A DNA stretch of 64,000 nt from Acidimicrobiaceae bacterium (GTDB lineage Bacteria; Actinomycetota; Acidimicrobiia; Acidimicrobiales; UBA8592): contig JAHECR010000014.1 of assembly GCA_024641655.1 (NCBI GenBank), positions 1 to 64,000 of the forward strand. The letters are read 5' to 3'. Below the pieces are notes generated by a model. It was not told the origin of the DNA. It saw only the letters and a list, made by a program, of their open reading frames with translations, and searched no databases. Positions 45,975 to 48,623 of this stretch are shown here, in pieces (within the stretch, counting starts at the first letter, position 1; each line of letters starts with the position of its first letter). Both the position numbers and the translations under genes were made by a program.

Positions 45975-46682
45975 CTACCTGTGGAGGAAGGTGCGCAGCT
46001 CGTGCGCGACCACCGCCGGGTGGCTCGTCAAGAGCTCGTGACCGACGTCGGGGAGCAGTCGAAGCGTGGCGAGCGGCACCAAGGAGGCCAGCGCCACGCT
46101 GTTGACAGCAGGCACCACGAGGTCGCGGGCCCCGGACAACACCAGTGTGGGTTGGGGCACGCCGGGAAGGGCGGCCCACCGGCTCGACGTGAGGTACGCG
46201 AACGACTGTCCCGCGACGCCCCGCCACGACCAGTGACCCGATCGGGCGAGTTCGTGCCCGTGCACGACCAGCGACAGTGGGTGCCCCGGCACTGCTCCGA
46301 GACCCGCGGAGCCCGACACCATCGCGAGTCGATCGACGAGGCTTCGATGCCGCAGCGCGAGCTCGAGCGCGAGCGACGCGCCCCACGAGTAGCCGACCGC
46401 AGCGACGCGTTCGATCCCCCGGTCGTGCAGTCGCGACGCCACCGCATCGGCAGTGTCGGCCAGCGTCCAACCGATCGGGGTGGTCGGAGCGTCGCCCACC
46501 CCCGGTGGGTCGACGACGAGCGTCGTGAAGTCCTCGAGGCGTGAGCGCACGTCGTGCCACAGCGTCGCGGCGCACCCCAGGCCGCCGAACAGGACGATTG
46601 CGGGGCCTTCGCCGCGCTCGTCGATGCGGACTGCGCCGCCCCGCGCCCGCGTCGAAGGGAGCGGGCTCATGGCGATAGGCAC
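45975..46682 (-). CDS. Alpha/beta-hydrolase fold protein
   Basis: A 235-residue hydrolase. The nucleophile elbow is GYSWGAS (GxSxG) near residue 100; the acid is Asp in LSGARDLVVP and the His in LLPDVGHELL. The oxyanion-type HG segment reads LFGGLGC. No lid domain of note, so esterase, lipase-like or lactonase activity is possible. GTG at 46682 used, but ATG at 46670 is equally likely. It starts a minus-strand run; the peroxiredoxin ends 23 bases upstream of it. Confidence 0.75.
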   Translation of the reverse strand: MPIAMSPLPSTRARGGAVRIDERGEGPAIVLFGGLGCAATLWHDVRSRLEDFTTLVVDPPGVGDAPTTPIGWTLADTADAVASRLHDRGIERVAAVGYSWGASLALELALRHRSLVDRLAMVSGSAGLGAVPGHPLSLVVHGHELARSGHWSWRGVAGQSFAYLTSSRWAALPGVPQPTLVLSGARDLVVPAVNSVALASLVPLATLRLLPDVGHELLTSHPAVVAHELRTFLHR

Positions 46683-46704: not shown

Positions 46705-47169
46705 TCAGGAGCGCGCCGCGATGTCGGCCAGGACGACCGCTGCGTGTTCGGAGAGGTCGGTTCCGGCGAGGTCGTAGGCAGCCGCGATGTTCCCGTCCGG
46801 GTCGATCAGGTAGCTGATGCGACGCGGGAAATCGGGGTACTGCTCGTCAGGCCCCTTTTGTGCTTCGTACGCTTCGCCGATCGTGTGGTCGGGGTCGCTG
46901 ATCAACAGGTAGGGAAACGCTTGCGCGTCGGCGAACGCCTTCTGGTCGGCGACGCTGTCGAACGACGCGCCGATGATGACGGCGTTGGCCGCCTCGAAGT
47001 CTGGGGCTCGATCACGGAACCCGCCTCCTTCGATCGTTCAACCGGGAGTGGACGCCTTCGGGTACCACCAGAACGCAACCCACTTCCCGGCGAAGTCGTC
47101 GAGTCGTACGGTGTTGCCATCCTGGTCCGGTGCCGAGAACTCGGGTGCCTTCTTACCAAGCTGCAGCAT
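46705..47169 (-). CDS. Bcp/PrxQ-type peroxiredoxin with in-frame TGA at the peroxidatic cysteine, probable selenoprotein
   Basis: Two open blocks are joined in the same frame by one TGA codon at 47038-47040. The first reads MLQLGKKAPEFSAPDQDGNT and ends FWWYPKASTPG; TGA is codon 44; the second starts TIEGGGFRDR and runs to LADIAARS. In thioredoxin-fold Bcp peroxiredoxins this exact place is the peroxidatic Cys in TPGCT; here it would be selenocysteine, TPG-Sec-T. The total of 154 residues fits Bcp. The second Cys of the usual CTKEAC pattern is Gly, so a 1-Sec mechanism using an external thiol is expected. ATG at 47169 lies behind AGGG. It would reduce peroxides. A nonsense mutant or sequencing error (TGC to TGA) is the main alternative. 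Confidence 0.75.
47009..47040 (-). promoter_or_regulatory. SECIS-like hairpin directly after the peroxiredoxin TGA
   Basis: Starting two bases after the TGA, CGATC (47036-47032) pairs with GATCG (47013-47009); inside it GGA (47028-47026) pairs with TCC (47018-47016), leaving a seven-base loop GGCGGGT (47025-47019) whose first bases are G. Bacterial SECIS elements lie in the coding sequence just after UGA, with a small upper stem and a G at the head of the loop; this fits that plan. Support is from pairing only. Confidence 0.55.
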
Positions 47170-47207: not shown

Positions 47208-48623
47208 TCAACGGGGGAGCCGGTGGTAGTGACGGTCGGCCAGTGCACCCGAGGCGTCTCGGAGCAGCTCGTTGTCACGCTGGATGCCCGCATAGAGAAC
47301 CCGCAGCGCGTCCGCGGTGTCGACCCGGCCGGCGGCGTTGGCGCGCGCGACGGCGCGGCGACCCTCCTCCACGCTGGCCGGACGATCGCCGAGCAGCACC
47401 TCGAGCTCGGCGAGCTCGTCGGCCGCGTACACCGCACCGAGTCGCTGGGCAGAGGCCAGGTATTTGATGACCCGGGCCAGGCCTTTGATGCGCTGGCTCG
47501 CGAACCCGTCGGTGATCCGTGGCGTGATGACATGACGCATCTGACCGAGGACCACGTCGTACAGCGTGTCGAGCTCTGTCGGCGCCGGTGGTTCCGCGAC
47601 GCGGGGGGATTCGAAGTCGAGCCCCATCACATCGGCCAGCGCTTCGGCGCACAGACGTCGATGGAGCTGTCCGAAGATGAGCCCGGCCCCCGGGTCGCCA
47701 CCCTCGCCGGGGCGGTTGCCGCGATCGGCAGCCGACTGCCCGTGGCTCATGACGCGGATCTTGGCCTCGCCCAGCACCCGGTAGTACCGAACCCGGTCGT
47801 AGTCGAGTCGATGCCCCGAGAGCTTCTCGTATTCGGCGAGGCGGGCGTCGAGATCGGTGAACGGCTCCTGCACCGCACGAAGGGTCAGCCACGCGATGTC
47901 GTCCATGGGGTCGCCGAAATGCGCCAACTCCCAATCGACGACGGCGGTCACCCGGCCATCGGCGTACATGAAGTTGCCCGGTCCGGTGTCACCTTGGACC
48001 AGCACGGTCGGCCCGTCGTAGTCGGGCACGTTCGCTCGCAGCCAGGTGAGGGCGAGGGCCACGATCGGGTCCGGTTCGCCGCCACGGAACGCGATGATCG
48101 CCTCCATCTCGTCGATCTGGGCCACGGCGAGATCGGGGACCGAACGGGTCGGGTCGAGGCCGGCCACGCCGGGTACGTCGATGCCGAGCGCAACGGGGTC
48201 GAGGCGGTGGAGCGCCGCGAGGTGGGTGATGAAGTCCTTGGCCGTCGACTCGGCCTCGTCGGGATCGGTGATGTGGGAGAACCAGTTGCGGCCGTAGACG
48301 CGGGTCGCGAGCATCGCCTGGCGTGTCGGGTGCATCGCCAGGAACTGCGCGACCGGCACCGGCGTGTCGCGCAGCGCGCGGTACACCTCGGCCTCGCGGC
48401 GCACGGTCCACGGGTCGCCGACCGCTGCGGGATCGCCCTGATCCCAGCGCAAGAAAAGCGCTCGAGTCGTGCCCACATCGTGCACGTCGACGAACCAGGC
48501 CTCCTTGCGCCCGCCGCCGGCTTGGCGGTCGGCGTAGGTCACCGTCGCACCAGTAACCTCCTCGATCCACGCTCGCATGTCGTCCGGGAGTCGGATCGTG
48601 GTGTCGGCGCTGGGTGCGCTCAT
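47208..48623 (-). CDS. Aminoglycoside phosphotransferase-family kinase-like protein
   Basis: A 471-residue APH-fold protein. The catalytic loop is LVQGDTGPGNFMYADGRVTA (Brenner motif HGD with Gln for His) near residue 227 and the Mg-binding segment is VVDWELAHFGDP near 245. The C-terminal 150 residues form an extra helical domain. These proteins phosphorylate small molecules or act on acyl-CoA pathway partners; the acyl-CoA dehydrogenase-like fusion seen in FadE-type homologues is absent. Antibiotic inactivation should not be assumed. ATG at 48623. Confidence 0.75.
   Translation of the reverse strand: MSAPSADTTIRLPDDMRAWIEEVTGATVTYADRQAGGGRKEAWFVDVHDVGTTRALFLRWDQGDPAAVGDPWTVRREAEVYRALRDTPVPVAQFLAMHPTRQAMLATRVYGRNWFSHITDPDEAESTAKDFITHLAALHRLDPVALGIDVPGVAGLDPTRSVPDLAVAQIDEMEAIIAFRGGEPDPIVALALTWLRANVPDYDGPTVLVQGDTGPGNFMYADGRVTAVVDWELAHFGDPMDDIAWLTLRAVQEPFTDLDARLAEYEKLSGHRLDYDRVRYYRVLGEAKIRVMSHGQSAADRGNRPGEGGDPGAGLIFGQLHRRLCAEALADVMGLDFESPRVAEPPAPTELDTLYDVVLGQMRHVITPRITDGFASQRIKGLARVIKYLASAQRLGAVYAADELAELEVLLGDRPASVEEGRRAVARANAAGRVDTADALRVLYAGIQRDNELLRDASGALADRHYHRLPR

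Follow-up and report, generated by a model that had tools for sequence, protein, structure and literature searches.

The peroxiredoxin gene and its relatives

The stretch of DNA analysed, called the window throughout, comprises 64,000 nucleotides of contig JAHECR010000014.1 from an Acidimicrobiaceae bacterium. Its minus strand carries a peroxiredoxin gene of the Bcp/PrxQ type with an in-frame TGA at the active site. The features concerned are:

46705..47169, minus strand: gene for a 154-residue peroxiredoxin of the Bcp/PrxQ type, position 44 being a probable selenocysteine (Sec, U)
47038..47040 (47040-47038), minus strand: in-frame TGA, codon 44, in the peroxidatic Cys column, P37-x3-T41-x2-U44
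47004..47022, minus strand: probable bacterial SECIS, stem GGGUUC/GAGCCC and 7-nt apical loop CGUGAUC, the loop lying 21 nt past the UGA
47009..47036, minus strand: hairpin proposed earlier, as interpreted here, with outer arms CGATC/GATCG; less conserved and set aside

The frame, its coordinates, the TGA at codon 44 and the length of 154 residues are all as described in the first-pass annotation. The TGA stands in the context STPG-TGA-T, which gives T41-P-G-U44 together with P37. The TxxU / PxxxTxxU motif, as defined in the available parts of PMC9312934 and PMC13188914, is present in the gene with TGA at the peroxidatic Cys. A second TGA (46707-46705, minus strand) is the gene's own stop. Upstream lies a gene for an APH phosphotransferase-family protein (47208-48623, minus strand), and downstream one for an alpha/beta hydrolase (45975-46682, minus strand). 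When these two and one plus-strand frame were compared by tblastn with 31 loci, that of the window among them and most with about 1.5 kb of flank, they matched only their own locus, with the sole exception of one weak hydrolase match in L073.

The Pfam family AhpC-TSA matched residues 5-130 of the protein with 113.7 bits against a cut-off of 26. In the PDB, phmmer ranked Bcp/PrxQ proteins highest, and a Cys faces the TGA position in all three PDB alignments shown. An AlphaFold2 model, computed from a 29-row alignment with Cys substituted for Sec, had a mean pLDDT of 97.6; its top Foldseek matches were Bcp/PrxQ structures, and the 1-Cys AhpE was also close. The Pfam score and the Foldseek matches to Bcp thus both place the protein in the AhpC-TSA/Bcp fold. 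At +5, the site of the resolving Cys in the 2-Cys type of PrxQ/Bcp, the protein has Gly49, and it is not of that type. The resolving Cys had been reported as absent, and this was borne out; the protein in fact contains no Cys at all. By sequence comparison, the TGA at codon 44 is real and almost certainly read as Sec, and the product is predicted to be a Sec-containing member of the Bcp/PrxQ-type peroxiredoxins.

A search of genome contigs gave six loci, three with TGA and three with Cys. TGA occurs at the same codon in the genes from Acidimicrobiaceae/Acidimicrobiales MAGs (L020-L022), and Cys is found at the site in three distant genes from Rhizobiales or Rhizobiaceae. A TGA member (E < 1e-44) was present in 19 of 148 sampled genomes of the order, the own genome included, and a survey of 396 genomes from the phylum added seven, which belong to families f99, f102 and f107. 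A gene of this kind had been expected to be unusual in such an actinobacterium; within the order, it is not rare. Close matches in the order without an in-frame stop have Cys (L038 and L047) or Ser (L046) at the site. A match flagged as having one TGA is not in itself proof of Sec, as L052 was flagged yet has Cys at the site, and about a dozen further flagged matches in the order lie outside the rows read.

The resulting clade has 34 rows, with TGA in 30, Cys in three and Ser in one at the peroxidatic column. The 30 TGA genes, including that of the window, were selected because a TGA lies close to the site, and every one of these TGAs falls in a single shared alignment column. The earlier claim that the TGA is not placed at random therefore holds, with TGA in that column in most of the clade. 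In a tree of 57 rows, from which L023-L025 and L059-L061 were omitted as distant and in which the bootstrap had not settled, this clade (30 Sec; Cys in L038, L047 and L077; Ser in L046) splits from 23 Cys-containing Bcp proteins at 100/96. The Cys gene L038 is nested inside a Sec subclade with support 99/82, and therefore Sec has been replaced by Cys at least there. Both L046 and L077 sit on long branches and their placement is unsure. In L046 (G071:C39:13945-14394), the active site reads EPGSRD, with Ser in place of Sec; its genome encodes SelB (284 bits) and has a tRNA-Sec match of only 46.3 bits. This gene is perhaps decaying or repurposed.

Outside cellular genomes, 14 phage records match the peroxiredoxin, all with less than 60% identity. 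One of these, Microcystis phage MW495066.1 (40604-40990), is annotated as prxU, a selenocysteine-containing peroxiredoxin, and is 36% identical.

The Sec proteins of the clade differ from their Cys relatives at the resolving position, since Cys is found at +5 in 21 of 26 aligned Cys relatives and in one of the 30 Sec proteins. No Cys at all is encoded in 22 of these 30. Six Sec proteins (L029, L037, L039, L040, L042 and L068) have a Cys 19 residues past Sec, as does the Cys form L047, and from its position this could possibly be an alternative resolving Cys.

Pro, Thr and Arg residues form the peroxidase pocket of the peroxiredoxin family. These pocket residues are partly described in the available parts of PMC13188914. 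Pro37, Thr41 and Arg117 are invariant across the 29-row alignment; among the 30 Sec proteins, all have the Thr at -3 and 28 the Pro at -7. This conservation argues against a Sec protein with a regulatory or chaperone role in place of peroxidase activity. Such a role has some precedent in a Deinococcus PrxQ, which the available part of PMC6590489 reports as both peroxidase and chaperone, and we regard it as improbable for the present protein.

A hairpin conserved downstream of the TGA

The first-pass annotation had drawn a SECIS-like hairpin that begins one base after the TGA, but the likely SECIS in this region is another hairpin. The earlier hairpin (arms 5-9/28-32) was paired in 77.8% of cells, a value matched by 97 of 500 shuffles, and was rejected as the SECIS, although it still stood above its own slid versions (40.0% at most). 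The hairpin with arms 18-24/32-38 was paired in 92.1% of cells; none of 500 shuffles reached this value, and its slid versions were paired in 58.7% of cells at most. Its covariation score was reached by 1 of 500 shuffles. Two of the five measures are unremarkable: two pairs changed on both sides (37 of 500 shuffles), and the five further pair types are not informative (481 of 500 shuffles). These covariation counts use 18 of 23 TGA genes: L031 was left out as identical to L030 in this region, and L039, L040, L042 and L056 because their hairpin is one or two bases off register. All four off-register genes keep both stem and loop.

In the 23 TGA genes, the end of the left arm and the T of the TGA are 24 nt apart and the loop is 5-7 nt long, beginning with CGUGA in all except L035, where it begins with CGUGC. 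The mean stem in these genes is 6.65 bp, compared with 2.61 bp and a maximum of 4.09 bp in 2000 synonymous resamplings. Stems of at least 6 bp occur in 21 of the 23 genes, compared with at most 8 in the resamplings, and the short stems are those of L037 (4 bp) and L044 (5 bp). These stem statistics cover the first 23 TGA genes. The seven found later have stems of 6-7 bp, with the loop CGUGA in six and CGGGA in L068. The Arg52 codon is CGT in 23 of 23 genes, although these genes most often encode Arg by CGC; among the seven later genes it is CGT in six and CGG in L068. Furthermore, pS is 0.478 over the first 12 codons downstream of the TGA, compared with 0.700 before it and 0.709 later. Three relatives that do not encode Sec lack the structure, with the hairpin reduced to 2 bp in both L038 and L047 (Cys) and to 1 bp in L046 (Ser). 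The fourth, L077 (Cys), has a different, strong stem further downstream. The hairpin 21 nt past the UGA is conserved beyond the needs of the protein.

The bSECIS model given in section 5 of PMC13188914 allows a loop of 3-9 nt, a stem of 4-16 bp and a spacing of 16-37 nt, with a G in the first two loop positions and an energy of <= -7.5 kcal/mol. The gene in the window agrees in loop (7 nt), stem (6 bp), G (loop start CG) and spacing (21 nt). The energy of the hairpin core is -7.2 kcal/mol, 0.3 short of the limit of -7.5, and becomes -12.2 (42 nt) or -17.0 kcal/mol (50 nt) when flanks are included. This generic test is weak, being passed by 22 of the 30 Sec genes but also by 170 of 1395 TGAs in the window, and for this reason the model was not relied on. 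Compared with synonymous resampling, the folding energy is unremarkable (z 0.31 for the gene in the window, mean -0.55 over 24 genes), and no Rfam family matched the region of the gene at E values of 1 or below. The case for a SECIS is one of conservation across the predicted Sec genes, not of a single fold.

Selenocysteine decoding in the genome and the order

The genome of 3.9 Mb is assembled in 121 contigs, with 92.8% completeness and 5.7% contamination. It contains a tRNA-Sec at C4:213-304 (63.5 bits, cut-off 47), which was also called by ARAGORN with the anticodon tca; the remaining matches to the tRNA-Sec model reach up to 46.9 bits. SelA (321 bits) and SelB (303 bits) are encoded next to each other on contig C50. 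SelD (371 bits; L019, G000:C113:16858-17781) is itself a TGA gene, with the TGA in GAGUGCK. All four components on which Sec decoding depends, tRNA-Sec, SelA, SelB and SelD, are thus present, and the lack of sel genes that the first-pass annotation named as a refutation is not observed.

Apart from the gene in the window, four further genes in this genome have a TGA at a plausible Sec codon, namely those for SelD, a formate dehydrogenase alpha subunit (FdhA), a second peroxiredoxin and a Prx-like protein with the motif UPFC. The second Sec peroxiredoxin of the clade (L056, G000:C101:54186-54629) is 51% identical and carries the loop CGUGA in a shifted register. FdhA (L062, G000:C92:7744-9615) has a single TGA, in CNRTUHAPS, and a score of 625 bits, below the model cut-off of 666. 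The Prx-like AhpC-TSA protein (L059, G000:C89:14900-15304) has its TGA in SLQW-U-PFC and looks like the known Prx-like UxxC kind of selenoprotein. The genes with TGA at expected Sec sites are spread over five contigs, so contamination is unlikely to account for the entire Sec gene set.

The hairpins of three of these genes have N-G-U in a 5-nt loop in common. In SelD, the hairpin GACGCA-CGUGG-UGCGUC places the loop CGUGG 32 nt past the UGA; the stem with the CGUG loop is 7 bp, and if a further C-G pair is closed the stem grows to 8 bp and the loop shrinks to GUG. The UPFC gene has GCAGCU-CGUGC-AGCUGC with a 6-bp stem, and FdhA has GUCGUC-GGUCU-GGCGAC with the loop GGUCU 18 nt downstream. A CGUG loop on a stem of at least 6 bp at that distance follows 27 of 8695 TGAs in random sequence; for the window the count is 10 of 1395, the peroxiredoxin hairpin included. 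These chance figures are a guide only, as the other genes were examined after the loop of the peroxiredoxin was known. Across the genome, the pattern TGA-N21-CGTGA-N5-C was matched 20 times and the reversed pattern 15 times, and the loop alone is thus not specific.

Among the genomes of the order, a tRNA-Sec of at least 58 bits was found in 18 of the 19 with a Sec gene of the clade and in 69 of the 129 without (Fisher p = 0.0003); this limit was picked after the scores were seen, and three genomes whose matches score 48.8-50.2 bits fall below it. The exception, G119, has a TGA gene and no tRNA-Sec match, but encodes SelB (271 bits). The presence of tRNA-Sec at this level in 87 of the 148 genomes suggests that Sec decoding is common in the order. 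The Cys form L047 is found in a single-contig genome (G140) with no SelB above the cut-off and a sole tRNA-Sec match of 47.5 bits, and L038, also with Cys, in a genome (G126) that retains tRNA-Sec (69.7 bits). The seven TGA genomes outside the order are drafts, 74-94% complete. Three of them have a clear tRNA-Sec (72.6-84.2 bits), two a weak one (47.9 and 45.1 bits) and two no match.

The presence of this machinery bears on the possibility that the UGA is decoded by something besides Sec, through general readthrough or a reassigned code. Such decoding is hard to reconcile with a gene whose own terminator is TGA, and with an in-frame TGA that occupies the active-site Cys column and precedes a hairpin missing from three non-Sec relatives. 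We consider it very unlikely. Still less credible is a nonsense mutation, by which translation would end at residue 43 and the remainder of the gene would be a relic. TGA does work as a stop in this genome, as at the end of the peroxiredoxin gene itself, but 30 of the 34 rows of the clade keep the TGA in the same column with an open frame behind it. Decay in the homologs was likewise looked for, and none was seen downstream of the TGA in the TGA relatives, where pN/pS against the gene in the window is 0.34-0.83, although synonymous sites are nearly saturated. Between L030 and L031, a close pair, pN is 0.008 and pS 0.114 in the region after the TGA. A sequencing or assembly error that turned TGC or TGT into TGA is extremely unlikely, given 29 other genes with TGA at the same codon, all from other assemblies except L056 and three of them in named MAGs.

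Proposed mechanism and relation to known peroxiredoxins

With the machinery present and the RNA conserved, we infer that Sec is inserted via SelB. SelB together with Sec-tRNA-Sec would bind the hairpin, whose loop lies 21 nt past UGA-44, and Sec would be inserted without termination, a reading to which we assign a probability of roughly 0.96. Sec-44 would then lie beside Thr41 and Arg117 in the PxxxTxxU pocket and, by analogy with the family, would be oxidised by peroxide to the selenenic acid. As the protein contains no Cys that could resolve this acid, reduction would depend on an external thiol. This thiol would be either thioredoxin or the mycothiol/mycoredoxin couple, and the choice between the two is a guess; the mycothiol/mycoredoxin couple reportedly reduces AhpE. 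The protein may function as a 1-Sec peroxidase that is recycled by such a thiol.

A wider reading, which we put forward tentatively and consider somewhat doubtful, is that the clade consists of mostly Cys-free 1-Sec PrxQ proteins, with repeated switching between Sec and Cys, a mycothiol-type thiol as partner and a shared NGUNN SECIS loop. A low-molecular thiol such as mycothiol would then resolve the selenenic acid, and the enzyme would work like a selenium glutathione peroxidase on a peroxiredoxin fold. On the RNA side, the loop NGUNN, mostly CGUGN, would be read by SelB across the various selenoprotein genes that the lineage carries.

Annotation that treats every TGA as a stop would cut the gene at residue 43. 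Within the clade, one enzyme occurs in both a Sec and a Cys form, as with L038 among its Sec relatives, and with these forms the contribution of selenium could be tested.

According to the available parts of PMC9312934 and PMC13188914, Prx (COG1225 Bcp or PF00578, TxxU) is an established selenoprotein family. The accessible text of other studies counts 43 Prx selenoprotein genes in the Sargasso Sea (PMC1088965), 91 Prx selenoproteins in 78 organisms (PMC5029168) and one in Symbiobacterium, placed there in Actinobacteria (PMC1794560). By its predicted features the gene in the window belongs to this already known family of Bcp-type TxxU selenoproteins, with which it shares the Bcp-type fold, the peroxidatic Sec, the TxxU motif and a hairpin after the UGA. 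It is less usual in its Acidimicrobiales lineage, in the CGUGA loop and in the lack of any other Cys, which holds for most of the clade's Sec proteins. In the open-licence literature searched, none of the titles listed concerned this clade or the selenoproteins of its lineage, and we found no description of such selenoproteins for the lineage.

PrxU of Eubacterium acidaminophilum, named in the first-pass annotation as the known example, is reportedly also a Sec-containing peroxiredoxin and has this trait in common with the protein described here. As a family model it does not fit, the score against peroxi_PrxU (NCBIfam NF040737) being 53.1 bits compared with a cut-off of 270, and the Bcp-type TxxU family fits instead. 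In both sequence and fold, PrxQ/Bcp of Xanthomonas campestris and BcpB of Mycobacterium tuberculosis are among the closest structures, and they differ in having an active-site Cys, not Sec. AhpE of Mycobacterium tuberculosis, a 1-Cys peroxiredoxin with Cys where the protein in the window has the predicted Sec, is 25-26% identical to it. According to its PDB title AhpE has no resolving Cys, and the structures agree with a TM-score of up to 0.90.
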